Shown piece after piece: positions 17,772 to 33,208 of a stretch of 33,665 nt of DNA. A program made the translations under genes and the position numbers. This DNA is from an uncultured Lachnospiraceae bacterium. Lineage in GTDB: Bacteria; Bacillota; Clostridia; Lachnospirales; Lachnospiraceae. The DNA is taken from contig CANRFJ010000026.1 of the NCBI GenBank assembly GCA_947629865.1, positions 1 through 33,665 on the forward strand. The letters run 5' to 3'. The notes under the pieces were generated by a model. That model was not told the DNA's origin and ran no database searches. It saw nothing but the letters and a program-made list of their open reading frames with translations. Position 1 is the stretch's first letter; each line of letters begins with the position of its first letter.

Positions 17772-17780
17772 TGTTGATCA

Positions 17781-17847
17781 TAAGATGGAGCGGAAATATA
17801 TAAAAGAAGCAATGAACGAAATGTGCTATAATATTCATGACAGTTGA
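17781..17847 (+). repeat. 67-bp direct repeat, copy 1
   Basis: It matches 28041-28107 with one mismatch (17790). Similarity continues weakly for about 19 bases more with a one-base shift. It can be read as the C-terminus of a protein (YIKEAMNEMCYNIHDS, stop TGA at 17845) and contains the -10-like TATAAT. Confidence 0.9.
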
Positions 17848-17995
17848 AGTTCCTTTCTTAGAACGTTTTTGTGGTGATTAACATTCTATAGGACTCAGCC
17901 GTCTTTGTACAGAGGAAAATGTCACATCAATTGTAACTCTACACAAGTGTGGAAACTCAAATTACAAAACTGCGATTCAGAGTGTGGATAATGAG

Positions 17996-24610: not shown

Positions 24611-25204
24611 ATGGAAATTATTGAAAAAATAATCAAAATGGCGAAAGACAATAATGGTGTGGTTACTACAGCCATGATTGTTGCAGCGGGGTTTTCACGG
24701 GGGAATATCAAATATTTGGTTGATAAGGGAAAACTGGAGAGATCTTCCAGGGGAGTATATATTTTGCCGGGAGTCTGGGACGATGAAATATTCAATTTGC
24801 AGAATCGATTTAAGAAAGGTATATATTCTCATGAAACGGCACTGTTTTTGTGGAATTTGACAGACAGAACACCAAACAGGTACCATATGACATTTCCGAT
24901 GAATTACAATTTGACAAATCCCAAGAAAGAAAATATTCAATGCGGACAGTGCAAAAAGGAGTTATACGGATTGGGGTTAATTGAAGTGGTCACGCCGGGA
25001 AGAAATGTTGTAAAAGCCTATAGCGCGGAGCGTACACTTTGCGATATTCTAAAACCCCGTAGTCGTGTGGACATTCAGATGATAACAGAGGCGTTTAAGA
25101 GTTATGCTGTCAGAGCGGATAAAAACATTCCGTTATTGTCAGAGTATGCAAAAGTACTAAAAGTTGAAGCAAGGCTCAGAGCGTATCTGGAGGTGTTGTT
25201 ATGA
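24611..25204 (+). CDS. abiEi: Type IV toxin-antitoxin antitoxin, AbiEi family
   Basis: This 197-aa protein has an N-terminal winged helix (about 10-55, MAKDNNGVVTTAMIVAAGFSRGNIKYLVDKG then LERSSRGVYILP), as in AbiEi_4 proteins. A C-terminal domain follows with GIYSHETALFLWNLTDRTPN and YSAERTLCDILKPRS, also typical. It represses its own operon and counteracts the toxin AbiEii; in lactococci this pair gives phage abortive infection. It overlaps the toxin gene by four bases (ATGA at 25201). The promoter and inverted repeat upstream fit autoregulation. Length is normal. Confidence 0.9.
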   Translation: MEIIEKIIKMAKDNNGVVTTAMIVAAGFSRGNIKYLVDKGKLERSSRGVYILPGVWDDEIFNLQNRFKKGIYSHETALFLWNLTDRTPNRYHMTFPMNYNLTNPKKENIQCGQCKKELYGLGLIEVVTPGRNVVKAYSAERTLCDILKPRSRVDIQMITEAFKSYAVRADKNIPLLSEYAKVLKVEARLRAYLEVLL

Positions 25205-26037
25205 AAAATGCAATGCAGCTAAAAGCTGTCATGAAAAATATTGCAAAAGAAAAGCATATTTCAGCGCAGCTTGTAATGCAGAATTTTATGTTAGAGAGAT
25301 TATTAGAACGGATATCTGTATCAAAGTATCAGAAGAATTTTATTCTAAAGGGTGGTTTTTTGATTGCGGCGATGGTCGGTTTGGACACCAGAGCGACCAT
25401 GGACATGGATGCGACAATAAAGGGCTTATCTGTAAATGAGCAGACTGTTCGGGAGATGTTTGAAGAAATCTGTAAAATAGATTTAGATGATGACGTGTTA
25501 TTTCGCTTTCGCAGTATTAGAGAGATACGAGAGGGAGATGAATATACAGGGTATCGTGTTGTGTTATCTGCAGATTATCCGCCTATGGCAATTCCTTTGA
25601 AATTGGATATTACTACAGGTGACAAGATCACTCCCAAAGAAATTACATATCGATTCAAACTGCTTTTGGAAGACAGAAGCATTTCGGTGCTTGCCTACAA
25701 TTTGGAAACAGTAATGGCGGAAAAATTAGAGACCGTAATATCCAGAGGTGATCAGAATACAAGACCGAGGGATTATTACGATATATACATATTGACCAAG
25801 TTGCAGTATTTAAACATAGACATTAGCACTTTAAGGGCGGCACTGGGAGCAACCGCGGGAAAACGCGGCTCTAAAAAGGTTCTGAAAGATTATCGTAACA
25901 TTATGGATACTGTTAAGAACAGTGAGATTATGCAGAAACAGTGGGATAATTATTGCAAGGATTTTGAATATGCGTCAGATATTGCGTTTGGGGATGTGTG
26001 TGGTGCGGTTGTACAGTTGATGGATGATTTAGTGTAA
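25201..26037 (+). CDS. abiEii: Type IV toxin, AbiEii/AbiGii nucleotidyltransferase
   Basis: This 278-aa protein belongs to the nucleotidyltransferase-fold toxins that modify nucleic acid, probably tRNA, when not neutralised. Key motifs are KGGFL (about 50-54) followed by Asp68 and Asp70 in MDMDATIKG, the metal-binding pair, then AEKLETVISRG and RPRDYYDIYIL further on. All appear intact. It is translated with AbiEi through the ATGA overlap. The toxin does not depend on contact with the antitoxin in known systems, hence type IV. A secreted-protein gene follows after 39 bases on its own ribosome binding site. Confidence 0.9.
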   Translation: MKNAMQLKAVMKNIAKEKHISAQLVMQNFMLERLLERISVSKYQKNFILKGGFLIAAMVGLDTRATMDMDATIKGLSVNEQTVREMFEEICKIDLDDDVLFRFRSIREIREGDEYTGYRVVLSADYPPMAIPLKLDITTGDKITPKEITYRFKLLLEDRSISVLAYNLETVMAEKLETVISRGDQNTRPRDYYDIYILTKLQYLNIDISTLRAALGATAGKRGSKKVLKDYRNIMDTVKNSEIMQKQWDNYCKDFEYASDIAFGDVCGAVVQLMDDLV

Positions 26038-27360: not shown

Positions 27361-27621
27361 ATGTTGCAGATTAGACCTGTTTCTGATTTAAGAAATAAGT
27401 TCCCCGATATTGAGAAAATTGTAAATATGGGTGAACCTGTATATTTGACAAAAAATGGATATGGTGCAATGGTGGTACTTAGTTTGGAGGAATATGCAAG
27501 GCTGACAGATGGGGTAGAAGCTGCATTGGATAAAGCGGACAGACTTGCGGCAGAGGATGCGGCGAGGATGAGTCATGAGGAAGTTTTTGGAAATCTTCGG
27601 AGGAAACTAAATGCTCAGTAA
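27361..27621 (+). CDS. Phd/YefM-family antitoxin (partner toxin disrupted)
   Basis: This 86-aa antitoxin has the Phd/YefM DNA-binding domain at its N-terminus (RPVSDLRNKFPDIEKIV, then VYLTKNGYGAMVVLSLEEYARL) and an acidic, helical C-terminal part that would bind the toxin (AALDKADRLAAEDAARMS). TAGGAG precedes the ATG. The antitoxin appears complete. The downstream toxin gene overlaps its last codons but is cut short, so this is now an orphan antitoxin, which may still repress its promoter or cross-neutralise the related toxin at 28460. Confidence 0.88.
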   Translation: MLQIRPVSDLRNKFPDIEKIVNMGEPVYLTKNGYGAMVVLSLEEYARLTDGVEAALDKADRLAAEDAARMSHEEVFGNLRRKLNAQ

Positions 27622-27851: not shown

Positions 27852-28107
27852 CTATGATGAGTATGATGAAATAATATTTCCTATATCGTCAGAGATATGT
27901 TTGTTCTTATTTGGAAAAGAAAATAAAGAAAATTGTCGTAAGAATTTTTTGTTTCCAATCGGAGATGAAATTAAGAAAGAGGTAATTAAATCTATGACGA
28001 AATCTTCGTTAGGTAAATTATATTCAAATCATATTATGGATAAGATGGAACGGAAATATATAAAAGAAGCAATGAACGAAATGTGCTATAATATTCATGA
28101 CAGTTGA
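27852..28107 (+). pseudogene. C-terminal gene fragment, unknown, without start
   Basis: An open frame runs from the IS junction (YDEYDEIIFPISSE...) to TGA at 28105, including ATG/TTG codons but no ribosome binding site. It looks like the 3' end of a gene whose 5' part was lost at the IS junction. Its last 22 codons lie in the 67-bp repeat also found at 17781. The product is AT-rich and basic, without a recognised family. Downstream to 28203 only the toxin-antitoxin promoter is seen. Confidence 0.5.
28041..28107 (+). repeat. 67-bp direct repeat, copy 2
   Basis: This is the second copy of the repeat at 17781-17847, in the same orientation, with one mismatch and an offset of 10,260 bases. Confidence 0.9.
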
Positions 28108-28148
28108 GTTCCCTTTGTTAGAACATTACAAAAAGCAATAAAATCCAG

Positions 28149-28177: not shown

Positions 28178-28203
28178 TATACACAGAGAAAGGGGTGAAA
28201 ATT

Positions 28204-28467
28204 ATGCCGCTTATCATACCCATTAAAGATTTACGCAATACAACAGAAATTTCCAGTCTTGCACACAAGGAACAGGAGCCTATTTTTATTACGAAAAACG
28301 GTTATAGCGATCTGGTTGTAATGAGCAGTGAATTATATGATAAATTTGCAAGGATAAACCGCATAGATCAGGCAATCTATGAATCTGAGCAGGAAAATGC
28401 AAATGGAGCACAGGCAGTTGATGCGGAAACTGTTTTTGAAGAATTGGGGAAAAAATATTTTGGATAA
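28204..28467 (+). CDS. Phd/YefM-family antitoxin
   Basis: This 87-aa antitoxin has PIKDLRNTTEISSL and PIFITKNGYSDLVVMSSELY, the Phd/YefM DNA-binding fold, and a helical C-terminus (QAIYESEQENANGAQ) for toxin binding. The ATG at 28204 with AGGGG eight bases upstream is preferred over the GTG at 28195, which overlaps that site. It is related to the antitoxin at 27361 (shared TKNGY.xxVV). The toxin start lies inside its last codons. Both genes look intact. Confidence 0.88.
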   Translation: MPLIIPIKDLRNTTEISSLAHKEQEPIFITKNGYSDLVVMSSELYDKFARINRIDQAIYESEQENANGAQAVDAETVFEELGKKYFG

Positions 28468-28792
28468 ATACAAAGTAAAAATCAATTCAAAGGCAATACG
28501 TGAATTAGACAGTATTTATGAATATATTGCAAATGATAAATTGGAACCTGAAAATGCGAGAGGGCAGGTTGATCGAATCAAAAAAGCGATTTTGAGTTTA
28601 GATACCTTTCCGCAGTCGCATCAGGAACGTATTGAGGGCAGATATGCCAAAATGGGTTACAGACAGTTATTGATTGATAATTATATTGCTATTTTTCGCA
28701 TTGATGAAGATCATAAAACGGTATATGTGGTAACAATACAATATCAGGGGCGCGGAGCATATAGCCCGCTTAAAGTGGTTTTTGGGAAATAG
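28460..28792 (+). CDS. RelE/ParE-family toxin
   Basis: This 110-aa toxin starts at TTG 28460, eight bases before the end of the antitoxin gene, and reads LDKYKVKINSKAIRELDSIY then EYIANDKLEPENARGQVDRI. It ends with IAIFRIDEDHKTVYVVTIQYQGR, the beta-sheet core of the family. RelE members cut ribosome-bound mRNA while ParE members poison gyrase; the sequence here, with YIANDKLEPENA, resembles the broad ParE/RelE group and does not decide between them. Translation is probably coupled to the antitoxin. Confidence 0.87.
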   Translation: MDKYKVKINSKAIRELDSIYEYIANDKLEPENARGQVDRIKKAILSLDTFPQSHQERIEGRYAKMGYRQLLIDNYIAIFRIDEDHKTVYVVTIQYQGRGAYSPLKVVFGK

Positions 28793-28867
28793 GTATACTC
28801 ATGGGAAATTTTTGTTTTATAGTGCTTCAAATGTAGTACAAAAGCAATGAACGAAAAGGAAACATAA

Positions 28868-30625
28868 GAAGGTGAATGGAATTATGAAAAGAATAACGGT
28901 TTGAAACCAAGCGAGATTCTTCAAGGTGGAGCTGGTAAAAAGTATTGGTGGATTGGTGCGTGTGGTCATGAGTGGGATGCTGTCATTTCAAGTAGAATTG
29001 CTGTCAGACAAGGAAAAACTCAATTGGTTAAATCAGTTGGATGTCCTTATTGTAGTAATCCACCTAAAAGAATTCTTGTGGGATTTAATGATTTAGAGTC
29101 ATGGTGTATAACTAATCAGAGAGATAATCTTTTGGCGGAATGGGATTACGAAAAAAATGAAATTTCTCCTACAGAAGTCACTTTTGGAAGCGGGAAATAT
29201 GTATGGTGGAAATGTAACAAGAATCATGAATGGAAAACACAAGTGCATAATAGAACGGGAGGCTCAAAAACTAATTGCCCTATTTGTGCTAGAACTCAGA
29301 CTTCTTTTCCGGAACAGGCGGTAGCATTCTATTTAAGGAAAAAATATGACATACTACAAAGATATAAGATAAAGGGGCGAGAGGTAGATATTTTTATACC
29401 GGAATTTAATATTGCCGTAGAATATGATGGTTCAATATGGCACTCTGGAAAGGAAAAAATAAAACAAGACTTAGAAAAAACCAAGAAACTTGTATCTGAG
29501 GGGGTAACACTAATTAGATTAAGAGAAACTAATGATAATATGTCAGTTAATAATAAGGCTGGACAATATGTTATAGAGTTTGTGGAAATGAATGGAAAAT
29601 ATGTTACAACAGAGTTTGAATGGGCTTTAAATGAATTATACAAGGTTATTAATACTATTACTAATCGCAATGATGTACCTATTATAGATATGAAAGCGGA
29701 TGAATTATCAATTAGAGCATATTATATGAATGTTCTTAAAGAAAATAGTGTAGCTAGTGTTTTTCCAGAACTGATTGAGGAATGGGATATTGAAAAAAAT
29801 GAGGGTATTACACCAGATGTATTTTCGGCTAGAAACAATAAAAAAGTATGGTGGAAATGCAGTAGAGGTCATTCCTGGTTAGCGTCAATTAATACAAGAG
29901 GAGAACGTAAATTGGGATGTCCGTATTGTGCTGGACAGAGAGTAATAGTTGGAGAGAATGATTTTAAATCATGGTGTAGAGATAATAATAGTAAGTTATT
30001 AGAAGAATGGGATTATGAAAAAAATACCGTAAAACCATATGAGATCCCCAGGACATACAAAGGGAAAGTACACTGGAAATGTGCTAAAGGACATATTTGG
30101 GAAGCGACAGTATATAATCGTGTGAACGGAACAGGATGTCCAATATGTAATTCTGGCAATCATGGTAAGCGAAATAAGATATCATTAGCAGAATGGTGTT
30201 CTAAAAATAATTCTTCATTATGTGATGAATGGAATTACAAAAGAAATAAAGGTATAACACCACAAACGGTTACATATGGAAGTCATTTAAAAGTATGGTG
30301 GAAATGTTTTAATGGACACGAATGGGAAGCTCAGATTAAAAGTAGAACATATAACCATGGATGTCCGTTCTGCTCTAGCACAAATAAAAAAGCACTTAAA
30401 GGTGTGAATGATTTAGAAACATGGTGCAGACAAAATAATAAAGAATATATATTGGCTGAATGGGATTCGTTACAGAATGGCGAACTAACCCCAGATATGG
30501 TTACATGGGGAAGTCACAAGCGGATTCACTGGAAATGCAGTAACGGACATACATGGGATGCGATGGTGAAAGAAAGAACGAAAATTCGAGGCAATCAATG
30601 TCCCATATGTCGAAAAGAATCATAG
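28868..30625 (+). CDS. Multi-zinc-ribbon protein with embedded PD-(D/E)XK-like nuclease, 5' end damaged
   Basis: The open frame starts right after TAA 28865-28867 and has no convincing start; TTG 28901 would give 574 aa. Already at 28868 the frame reads EGEWNYEKNNGLKPSEI, a module seen five more times, so the N-terminus seems truncated. Six treble-clef/zinc-ribbon units (DUF4379 type) follow the pattern EW[DN]-x3-N, W[WK]-x-C-x2-GH-x-W and a closing CPxC. Between units two and three lies a nuclease-like segment, numbered from 28901: Glu138 (FPEQ), Asp163 (EVDIFIPEF), Glu174 and Asp176 (VEYDGSIWH), like Vsr/DUF559 PD-(D/E)XK folds. It probably binds DNA and may cut it. Related proteins occur in defence-rich regions; the role is unproven. 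Confidence 0.75.
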   Translation, partial: EGEWNYEKNNGLKPSEILQGGAGKKYWWIGACGHEWDAVISSRIAVRQGKTQLVKSVGCPYCSNPPKRILVGFNDLESWCITNQRDNLLAEWDYEKNEISPTEVTFGSGKYVWWKCNKNHEWKTQVHNRTGGSKTNCPICARTQTSFPEQAVAFYLRKKYDILQRYKIKGREVDIFIPEFNIAVEYDGSIWHSGKEKIKQDLEKTKKLVSEGVTLIRLRETNDNMSVNNKAGQYVIEFVEMNGKYVTTEFEWALNELYKVINTITNRNDVPIIDMKADELSIRAYYMNVLKENSVASVFPELIEEWDIEKNEGITPDVFSARNNKKVWWKCSRGHSWLASINTRGERKLGCPYCAGQRVIVGENDFKSWCRDNNSKLLEEWDYEKNTVKPYEIPRTYKGKVHWKCAKGHIWEATVYNRVNGTGCPICNSGNHGKRNKISLAEWCSKNNSSLCDEWNYKRNKGITPQTVTYGSHLKVWWKCFNGHEWEAQIKSRTYNHGCPFCSSTNKKALKGVNDLETWCRQNNKEYILAEWDSLQNGELTPDMVTWGSHKRIHWKCSNGHTWDAMVKERTKIRGNQCPICRKES

Positions 30626-30930: not shown

Positions 30931-31992
30931 ATGAGATCGTTTGATTATGGCATACTTGCAGATAAAGTTTGGGATACAGGGATACTAAATCTTATTGCAA
31001 AGATTCATGAGTGTAAAGGGAGACAGGAATTATTTATTCGGCAAAAGCCAGTTGAATTGGAGCGCCTGGTTAAAATTGCCAAAATACAGAGTACAGAGGC
31101 ATCTAACAAAATAGAAGGAATTGTTACAACAAGTACTCGAATGAAACAGCTTTTTGAAGAAAAAACAACTCCAGGAAACCGCGATGAGGATGAAATTATG
31201 GGATACAGAGATGTGCTGAATACCATTCATGAGAGTAACGAGTACATTCCAATCCGTTCTTCTTATATACTCCAACTTCATCGAGACCTTTTGAAAAGGG
31301 CAGGGTCCTCTTATGGCGGACATTTTAAGAATGTGCAAAACTATATCAATGAAACGAAGCCTGATGGAACGGTAGTTACCAGGTTCACGCCGGTTGCTCC
31401 TTATGACACACCAGGTGCAGTTGAGGATATATGCAAAGCCTATGAGCAGGCTGTTTCAGATGAGAAGATAGATTCATTGATTTTGATTCCGACATTTGTA
31501 TGTGACTTTCTTTGTATCCATCCTTTTAATGATGGCAACGGAAGAATGAGCAGACTGCTTACATTGCTTCTCCTGTATAAGAGCGGATACAGTGTGGGTA
31601 AATACATCAGTATTGAAAAACAGATAGAGAAAACGAAAGATTGTTATTACAACGCGCTTGAAAAAGCTGATGCAGGGTGGCATGAAGAAGAAAACGATCC
31701 AACACCATTTATCAGATATATGCTGCAGGTAATCCTGGCCTGTTATACGGAGTTTGAGGAACGTGTAGGATTAATGTCGAAAAGTGGTGCTGGTAGCACG
31801 GCGTATGATATTGTTAAAAAATATACGAAAGAGAAAATTGGTAAATTTACTGGTGCAGAGGTTGTTTCCCATTGTCCCAGCATAGGAAGGTCGTCAACTC
31901 TTGCAGCCCTGAAGAAGCTTACAGAAGAAGGCTTTATCATTAGGAAAGGCATAGGCAGAAGTACATTTTATGTTCGTGCTGACAGCAAATGA
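30931..31992 (+). CDS. Fic-family protein with C-terminal winged helix
   Basis: This 353-aa Fic protein has the catalytic loop HPFNDGNGRMSR (His197 first), so AMP transfer from ATP to target hydroxyls is plausible. An N-terminal inhibitory helix carries SNKIEG (Ser58-Gly63, Glu62), as in class II Fic proteins that silence their own active site. A Fic N-domain precedes it, and the C-terminus (about 295-353) is a winged helix (FTGAEVVSHCPSIGRSSTLAALKKLTEEGFI then GRSTFYV). The start at 30931 follows AAAGGAG by five bases. The upstream inverted repeat fits autoregulation. It is intact. The target is unknown. Confidence 0.92.
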   Translation: MRSFDYGILADKVWDTGILNLIAKIHECKGRQELFIRQKPVELERLVKIAKIQSTEASNKIEGIVTTSTRMKQLFEEKTTPGNRDEDEIMGYRDVLNTIHESNEYIPIRSSYILQLHRDLLKRAGSSYGGHFKNVQNYINETKPDGTVVTRFTPVAPYDTPGAVEDICKAYEQAVSDEKIDSLILIPTFVCDFLCIHPFNDGNGRMSRLLTLLLLYKSGYSVGKYISIEKQIEKTKDCYYNALEKADAGWHEEENDPTPFIRYMLQVILACYTEFEERVGLMSKSGAGSTAYDIVKKYTKEKIGKFTGAEVVSHCPSIGRSSTLAALKKLTEEGFIIRKGIGRSTFYVRADSK

Positions 31993-32155: not shown

Positions 32156-33208
32156 ATGAACGAAATTATAAAAAATGAAAATTTGTCGAACGATCCTCAG
32201 TCGGAAGATGCGTATCTCTCTATTCGAGGATACGTCATTGATGCACAGCGGCAAGTCTATTCAGCCGTTAATGCAGCTATGGTGACTGCTTATTGGAACA
32301 TCGGCAAGGCGATATATGAAATTTGCGGTGAAAGTGACCGTGCCGCATATGGAAAACAAATCATGGAATATCTCTCTGAACGGCTGACTGCGGAATTTGG
32401 AAAAGGCTTCAGCATTCGGAACCTGCGGAATATGCGGCGGTTTTATCTTGCATTTCCAATTCGGCAGACACTGTCTGCCGAATTAAGCTGGTCTCATTAT
32501 TTACTTTTGATGAAAGTAGAAAATGAAACGGAACGCAAATTCTATTTTGAGGAAACAGCAAAATCAGGTTGGAGTGTCAGACAGCTGCAACGTCAGATTA
32601 ATACCATGTTCTATCAGCGCATCCTTGCAAGCAGAGACAAAGAAAGTGTGGCTGCGGAAATTCAGACTACAGAGCCAAAACCGGAATATGAGCGGATCAT
32701 CAAGGATCCTTATGTGCTGGAGTTTCTTGACTTGCCGGCAAATGAGCATTATTACGAATCTACGCTGGAGCAGGCACTCATCGATCATTTGCAGAAGTTT
32801 CTGCTGGAACTGGGACGCGGGTTTTCTTTTGTCGCCAGGCAGAAGCATTTCAATATAGACGGCAGACACTTTTATATCGATCTTGTCTTTTACAATTATA
32901 TACTAAAATGTTTTGTGCTGATTGATCTGAAGACAGGTGACTTGGCACATCAGGATATCGGTCAGATGCAGATGTATGTCAATTATTATACAAGATATAT
33001 GATGAACGAGGGCGATAATCCGCCGGTAGGTATTCTTCTGTGCGCTCAAAAAAGTAATACTTTGATGCAGCTGACTCTGCCGGAGAATAACACACAGATT
33101 TATGCGGCCAAGTATATGCCGTATATGCCGACCGAGGAAGAATTGAAGCGAGAATTGAATTTGGATGAGTTTGAGAAACTGGAGGATGAAAACAATGGAG
33201 AATCTTAA
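32156..33208 (+). CDS. PDDEXK nuclease-domain protein, YhcG/DUF1016 family
   Basis: This 350-aa protein has the N-terminal DUF1016 helical domain (about 20-150, with NAAMVTAYWNIGKAIYEI, FSIRNLRNMRRFYLAFP and LSWSHYLLLMKVE) and a C-terminal PD-(D/E)XK nuclease. In the latter, FYIDLVFYN supplies Asp242 and CFVLIDLKTG supplies Asp257-x-Lys259; GQMQMYVNYY follows. Catalytic residues are intact. Members are often found beside restriction-modification genes and on mobile elements, and are thought to act in defence or recombination, but the role is not settled. GAAAGGA precedes the start. It overlaps the Mod gene by 14 bases, indicating one operon. Confidence 0.92.
   Translation: MNEIIKNENLSNDPQSEDAYLSIRGYVIDAQRQVYSAVNAAMVTAYWNIGKAIYEICGESDRAAYGKQIMEYLSERLTAEFGKGFSIRNLRNMRRFYLAFPIRQTLSAELSWSHYLLLMKVENETERKFYFEETAKSGWSVRQLQRQINTMFYQRILASRDKESVAAEIQTTEPKPEYERIIKDPYVLEFLDLPANEHYYESTLEQALIDHLQKFLLELGRGFSFVARQKHFNIDGRHFYIDLVFYNYILKCFVLIDLKTGDLAHQDIGQMQMYVNYYTRYMMNEGDNPPVGILLCAQKSNTLMQLTLPENNTQIYAAKYMPYMPTEEELKRELNLDEFEKLEDENNGES

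Follow-up and report, generated by a model that had tools for sequence, protein, structure and literature searches.

Endonucleases that join zinc-type modules to a Vsr-like nuclease were described in 2025 in phage group II introns, with three to five modules and a C-terminal EDxHD/Vsr domain; as far as the description of these enzymes goes, their modules are distantly related to CapR, DUF4379 and DUF723, and many relatives are said to be unannotated (PMC12350094). The homing endonuclease I-Bth0305I is reported to have several domains and a target that spans almost 60 bp (PMC3943268), and MTES_1575 is reported from a HEPN fusion protein (PMC3710099). Here we analyse a gene of an uncultured Lachnospiraceae bacterium that lies in a contig of 33,665 nucleotides (the whole stretch of DNA studied, called the window below) and that encodes an array of DUF4379 units with a predicted nuclease in its interior. 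We propose that its family, the zinc-array nucleases, consists of site-specific EDxHD/Vsr endonucleases with a DUF4379 array, and that the gene is probably, though by no means certainly, a free-standing homing-type selfish gene. The features of the window are as follows.

24611-26037: AbiEi/AbiEii type IV toxin-antitoxin pair, with strong Pfam and PADLOC matches.
27361-27621: a second, lone Phd/YefM antitoxin gene (Pfam) with no recognised toxin adjoining; a 68-aa ORF (27901-28107) comes next.
28195..28792, + strand: Phd/YefM-like antitoxin and ParE toxin genes (Pfam), directly upstream of the nuclease gene; a functional link with the nuclease is putative.
28195-28464, + strand: the Phd/YefM-like antitoxin gene, Pfam 27.3 bits, just under the cut-off of 29.8.
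28469-28789, + strand: the ParE gene (Pfam).
28866..28875, + strand: Shine-Dalgarno-like AAGAAGGTGA, which the intact relative L007 also has, shortly upstream of its TTG start; the truncation junction of the window copy follows this string immediately.
28868..30625, + strand: zinc-array nuclease ORF, open throughout, 5′ truncated by comparison with L007; the first usable start, TTG 28901, gives 574 aa.
28874..29059, + strand: DUF4379 unit 1, whose EW[ND] motif lies upstream of TTG 28901.
29129..29293, + strand: DUF4379 unit 2 (Pfam).
29288..29593, + strand: predicted EDxHD/Vsr-type PD-(D/E)XK nuclease domain with E138, D163, E174, D176, H181, D190 and K193 (borders from a family model built in this analysis; residues numbered from TTG 28901).
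29771..29938, + strand: DUF4379 unit 3 (Pfam).
29996..30154, + strand: DUF4379 unit 4 (Pfam).
30218..30379, + strand: DUF4379 unit 5 (Pfam).
30449..30616, + strand: DUF4379 unit 6 (Pfam).
30931-31989: Fic gene (Pfam).
32156-33205: YhcG gene (Pfam).

The reading frame of the ORF is preceded by a TAA stop (28865-28867), and the first in-frame ATG, GTG or TTG is TTG 28901. The six regularly repeated treble-clef units that had been noticed in the DNA are DUF4379 (PF14311) units, matched by Pfam in a single frame with an E-value of 7e-107. Every unit scores >24.5 bits, above the curated cut-off, so that the product is a DUF4379 protein, and the Cys/His ligands are kept in all six by inspection. No further DUF4379 match occurs in the 2.64 Mb genome. 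The DUF4379 matches support the reading of the array as zinc modules of a nucleic-acid-binding type, which it would be on the strength of these profiles.

We found that the segment between units 2 and 3, which the original prediction had called nuclease-like, matched REase_MTES_1575 in Pfam at 34.0 bits when searched alone, below the curated cut-off of 38.2; DUF559 matched more weakly and was also sub-threshold. Glu138, Asp163, Glu174 and Asp176, singled out beforehand, are where they were said to be in the TTG numbering and are kept in 33, 34, 34 and 31 of 34 aligned sequences (window included), respectively. Additionally, S135, G177, H181 and K193 are invariant in all 34, and the position of D190 holds Asp in 22, Glu in 10 and another residue in 2. 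We take E138, D163, H181 and D190 to be the E, the D, the H and the last D of EDxHD. An AlphaFold2 model of unit 2, the nuclease segment and unit 3 (pLDDT 90.8, pTM 0.79) predicts a helix, three strands, a helix and a strand, the order of a PD-(D/E)XK core, so that the suspected nuclease fold was obtained, with the conserved residues on the predicted core: helix 1 carries E138, strands carry D163 and E174/D176, and H181 lies in the loop that follows, ahead of K193 in the next helix.

A profile search of the PDB gave six matches, among which the sole nuclease was 3r3p, a "Mobile intron protein" (1.2e-4; 0.06 with the single sequence), which we take to be the catalytic domain of the homing endonuclease I-Bth0305I. 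The other five, all better, paired DUF4379 units with kinetoplastid mitochondrial ribosome or assembly proteins. Against viral models, Foldseek returned 109 matches at E<=0.001; among the 50 listed are several named as homing endonucleases, giant-virus proteins named as zinc-ribbon or 'restriction endonuclease', and one DUF559 protein. PADLOC gave a single weak match for the window protein, to 'homing endonuclease' (3.3e-4), and PHROGs matched phrog_559 (2.2e-52, named HNH endonuclease) and phrog_3339 ('homing endonuclease', 5.8e-13). The HNH label of phrog_559 does not fit the motif as we read it in the window nuclease, which by profile similarity and predicted fold is of the Vsr/EDxHD-type PD-(D/E)XK class.

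Relatives of the gene are sporadic. We observed matches in 6 of 61 genomes of near relatives, 22 of 397 of the family (E<=1e-30), 29 of 392 of the order (E<=1e-15, including some matched through zinc units alone) and, at the level of the phylum, 3 of 398 (E<=1e-35), with the genome of the window counted each time; a search of genome contigs yielded 40 loci with relatives. By their titles, matched records also come from Prevotellaceae, spirochaetes, Saccharibacteria and archaea. We assembled 70 nuclease-bearing genes in 67 loci, after dropping the duplicate loci L018, L044 and L121 and leaving genes without the nuclease domain uncounted. The nuclease is internal in 63 of the 70, with 1-7 units on either side, and the largest array has 11 units in one protein. 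In-frame stops occur in 6 of the 26 nuclease-spanning matches of the order, some of whose alignments may overrun the true gene end, and this fits a gene that is gained and then decays. Among mobile DNA, 123 phage records match, those of Campylobacter being annotated as (Hef-like) homing endonucleases with up to 6 matching places per record, as do 79 plasmid records, annotated only as 'zinc-ribbon domain-containing protein'. Viral contigs hold 490 relatives, several contigs having more than one. The best 79 loci of these 490 contain 105 ORFs with the nuclease, in which units lie only before it in 23, on both sides in 9 and only after it in 4; in the remaining 69 the model detected none. Two Rhodococcus plasmid proteins (L204:3767-8017 and L212:4905-8945; 1416 and 1346 aa) carry 7 and 6 DUF4379 units, respectively, and no detectable nuclease of the zinc-array family.

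An enrichment of tRNA genes is seen close to zinc-array nuclease genes, less strongly under the stricter of two controls. Within 600 bp, a limit set after seeing the data, a tRNA gene is present at 12 of 67 loci. The tRNA 3′ end faces the nuclease gene in all 12 of these cases and in 13 of 14 within 1 kb. The near flanks, 76.5 kb in all, contain 12 tRNA clusters, and the 746 kb of flank beyond 2 kb contain 8 (14.6-fold, p 2.6e-8); the enrichment is present separately in both locus sets (6 clusters in 34 loci and 6 in 32), and against this distant-flank control it also holds at 150, 300 and 1000 bp. The stricter control placed genes at random within the loci themselves and gave a mean of 4.9 at 600 bp, against 12 of 70 observed (p 0.0005); at 300 bp the 6 observed against a mean of 4.1 are not significant (p 0.22). 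The enrichment of tRNA genes beside zinc-array nuclease genes is new here, and among the titles and abstracts listed in literature searches we found none on tRNA-linked zinc-array nucleases. The window itself has no tRNA gene. A coarse search with three recombinase queries found a recombinase-like ORF in 15 of the 67 loci, namely in none of the 12 tRNA-adjacent loci vs 15 of the other 55; with only three queries, divergent integrases may be missed.

A location at tRNA 3′ ends and flanking direct repeats are features of integrative elements that target tRNA genes, and of their integrase-less derivatives; integrases ordinarily use such ends as their sites. We therefore note that, with recombinase-like ORFs at some loci, the nuclease gene could be cargo. 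For the 62 loci with enough flank, we compared up to 3 kb before the gene with up to 3 kb after it, alongside 109 random placements. A direct repeat of 36-60 bits was found at 11 of the 62 loci vs none of the 109 placements; much longer flanking repeats occurred at two loci and in five controls. Of the eleven repeats, four correspond to the 3′ end of a tRNA gene, and a further segment lies inside a conserved gene. The five segments are as follows.

L021: 4.06 kb; 25 bp repeat of tRNA-Gly; the nuclease and a CdiA_C-like gene.
L031: 3.7 kb; 18 bp repeat, 11 of them tRNA-Gln; a Phd-like gene, a short gene and the nuclease.
L114: 8.5 kb; 20-22 bp repeat of tRNA-Leu; two nucleases and two genes without a Pfam match.
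L017: 6.1 kb; 21 bp repeat of tRNA-Gln; a serine recombinase inside.
L007: 3.64 kb; 18 bp repeat, the CHGN-coding stretch of a low-molecular-weight (LMW) phosphatase gene.

At L007 a truncated phosphatase 5′ end lies upstream, and a second 5′ end, joined to the rest of the gene, closes the segment. No ORF in the L021, L031, L114 and L007 loci matched the three recombinase queries. At L015 a gene fragment is repeated around the nucleases and a serine recombinase, and a serine recombinase lies directly downstream of the nuclease in L015, L029 and L034. The 36-60 bit repeats of L037, L112 and L013 are intergenic, and two others were discarded as element borders: that of L035 is explained by paralogous integrase genes, and that of L038 looks like a dispersed repeat. 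In the window no flanking repeat rises above control level, the best being 14 bp. At L031 (9067-9788) the Phd-like gene, 28.7% identical to that of the window, and the short second gene precede the nuclease in an arrangement resembling the window's toxin-antitoxin pair.

Comparison with sites lacking the gene gave no clean single-gene empty site in four cases (G026 lysS, L132, L134 and Rhodococcus pSID). At the G026 lysS site, none of 29 loci of relatives match the sequence after lysS, and the five inspected differ among themselves; for the L132 site, between pfkA and tRNA-Ser, only distant relatives were available for comparison. The L134 tRNA-Met site has a sister genome, G1143, without the gene; homology runs only as far as the tRNA terminator, and no far boundary came to light within 20 kb. 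Two sister plasmids of pSID lack the gene and have ~650 bp of unrelated sequence instead; the pSID protein is itself without a detectable family nuclease. The Listeria, Campylobacter and Lactobacillus records listed showed no empty allele of the nuclease gene. In L151 a partial second copy of the lysS 3′ end (48 bp, 81%) lies ~0.8 kb downstream of lysS, and this part of lysS may attract integration repeatedly in that genus. An intron-borne gene was rejected for the window, which has no Rfam match; one group I intron was found among 12 viral loci scanned of the 79, ~1.2 kb from the nuclease gene.

The surroundings of the gene had suggested a defence nuclease. A toxin-antitoxin pair, Fic and YhcG are indeed present by Pfam, as listed above; an abundance of toxin-antitoxin and Abi genes nearby is not enough to call a gene a defence gene. 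The window contains two copies of an 88-bp sequence (28040-28127 and 17780-17867, 93% identity), which also has shorter matches elsewhere in the genus and is a dispersed repeat. We scanned 124 nearest neighbours of family members with PADLOC at 1e-8, alongside 124 control genes drawn at random from 157 that stand six to nine genes from the nuclease gene within those loci. The nearest neighbours matched 99 families vs 88 in the controls, no clear excess, and among the matches listed (25 of the 99 families) none occurred in more than one of the 124 nearest-neighbour genes. Clustering of 391 neighbours of 46 loci gave no conserved partner gene; the largest recurring groups were HTH_3 regulators (10 loci), a group with other family members (8), serine recombinases (5) and response regulators (5). 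Five groups occurred in 3 loci, among them a Y-family polymerase gene accompanied by a small adjacent gene. Two of the nucleases have an HNH_4 endonuclease gene in their vicinity (L117:6718-7878 and L123:5652-6830). After PADLOC on the protein, the clustering of neighbours and the near and far neighbour scans, a defence system was dropped as the leading idea, and the gene resembles phage homing endonucleases more than it does a defence system.

The domain make-up, residue conservation, predicted fold, kinship to phage homing endonucleases, sporadic distribution, tRNA enrichment and few repeat-bounded segments are observed by computation; we infer from these that the substrate is DNA rather than RNA and that the protein binds through its array, cleaves and homes. 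In the proposed mechanism, the DUF4379 treble-clef array would bind a long DNA site, and the internal nuclease would cut the bound site. The selfish gene would travel by itself or as part of small elements in the chromosome, a number of which lie at the 3′ end of a tRNA gene or within a conserved gene, and would spread by cleavage of empty alleles followed by copying through recombination. We favour this homing-type reading because the nuclease class is known for homing, the array could read a long site, and the hosts are sporadic and distant, with decay and some positions at conserved sites. Counting against it are the outcome of the empty-site comparisons, which gave no clean single-gene case, the recombinase-like ORFs in 15 of 67 loci, the PDB matches of DUF4379 units with mitoribosome proteins, the variable residue at D190, the loss of significance at 300 bp under the stricter tRNA control, and a window with neither an Rfam intron nor a flanking repeat above control level.

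Since integrases also make repeat-bounded segments at tRNA genes, the nuclease could either move its element or be carried by it. As cargo, it would attack rival elements or phages on behalf of integrative elements or plasmids whose recombinases, in cis or in trans, provide mobility. The toxin-antitoxin, AbiE, Fic and YhcG genes of the window, the serine recombinases downstream of three nucleases and inside the L017 segment, and the 79 plasmid records are consistent with this, as are the Abi, GmrSD, YhcG and Schlafen-helicase genes (one case each) and ResIII genes (two cases) that occur as nearest neighbours. However, with the near-equal family counts in controls from the same loci and no recurring family among the matches listed, with housekeeping genes among the neighbours (lysyl- and leucyl-tRNA synthetase, thiolase and M42 peptidase) and with phage homing endonucleases as the closest named relatives, we consider the cargo role unlikely. 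A stronger form of the homing reading, not exclusive of it, makes the nuclease the mobility factor of a small recombinase-less element that targets tRNA 3′ ends or conserved coding sequence and carries a copy of the interrupted end. The direct repeats that bound L021, L031, L114 and L007, and the skew of recombinase-like ORFs away from tRNA-adjacent loci, point in this direction. Against it, divergent integrases may escape three queries, Pfam matches nothing in two genes of the L114 segment, a tRNA repeat of this kind encloses a serine recombinase in L017, and the segments may be remnants moved by helpers, so we regard it as possible but on the unlikely side. Carried further, the zinc-array Vsr nuclease would be the self-sufficient mobility protein of unrecognised miniature recombinase-less elements, whose units read a long tRNA 3′ end or coding address, whose nuclease cuts there and which are copied in with the gene end restored; this we hold to be doubtful.

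An RNA-directed nuclease, whose DUF4379 array binds structured RNA such as tRNA, is very unlikely, as the nuclease domain is similar to DNA endonucleases of the Vsr/I-Bth0305I type; RNA binding is made possible by the five better PDB profile matches, all with kinetoplastid mitoribosome proteins that contain DUF4379 domains, and the enrichment at tRNA genes would also suit it. That the window copy is a dead fragment without present function would be compatible with the homing, cargo, mobility-factor and RNA readings alike. The closest relative found, L007 from a Lachnospiraceae MAG, is 87% identical, has 693 aa with a TTG start and has one extra unit. The window keeps AAGAAGGTGA and then passes directly into the EW[ND] motif of L007 unit 2, so that ~110 N-terminal residues and one unit are missing, and no ATG, GTG or TTG lies between the upstream stop and TTG 28901. 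The suspected truncation is thus real; death of the copy, which had also been raised, is no more than likely. Ka/Ks is 0.108 between the window and L007, perhaps mostly from the time before truncation, and 0.111 between L007 and L008, with synonymous sites near saturation, and these coding sequences indicate that the family is under purifying selection. The in-frame stops in 6 of 26 matches of the order, where alignments may overrun, also fit a dead fragment, whereas the 574 codons still open, the low Ka/Ks and the intact ligands of all six units speak against one. Having lost its first unit and natural start, the window copy is probably a decaying remnant, and we lean towards its being a dead fragment. 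A six-codon ORF follows the leader (28884-28904), and its TGA overlaps TTG 28901 (TTGA); coupled re-initiation might occur there.

If the array reads DNA modularly, the family would offer a natural, programmable-looking DNA-binding scaffold with up to 7 units on a side of the nuclease, in 70 genes and related viral genes. The tRNA-flanked segments are a direct place to test the movement of small elements without an evident recombinase.

Zinc-array nucleases share tandem ~60-aa zinc-type modules and a Vsr-like nuclease of ~100 aa with the phage intron enzymes, as these are described, so the original prediction of an undescribed nuclease is right only in part (PMC12350094). The REase_MTES_1575/DUF559 (Vsr-like) nucleases are the best, if sub-threshold, Pfam match of the window nuclease segment. 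I-Bth0305I has a similar catalytic domain (3r3p, at the profile E-value given above), and to our knowledge its DNA-binding region is not a DUF4379 array. The Hef-like homing endonucleases of Campylobacter phages resemble the family in their nuclease domain (for Los1, the family model gives E 2.8e-16) and in having several matching places per record; the Los1 protein, the only one tested, has no detected DUF4379 unit, unlike the zinc-array family. With tRNA-targeted integrative elements and their integrase-less derivatives, the zinc-array segments share the position at tRNA 3′ ends and the direct repeats; unlike them, they measure 3.7-8.5 kb and have the zinc-array nuclease as their largest gene. 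The phage enzymes place the nuclease C-terminally after 3-5 modules and lie in introns of phage genes, whereas the family has a mostly internal nuclease, up to 11 units and a mostly bacterial chromosomal location, with no intron detected in the window (PMC12350094, from its account of the phage enzymes). Because these phage enzymes are already described, the bacterial form is best seen, on that account, as a variant whose nuclease is internal, whose arrays are larger and whose genes stand free in the chromosome.
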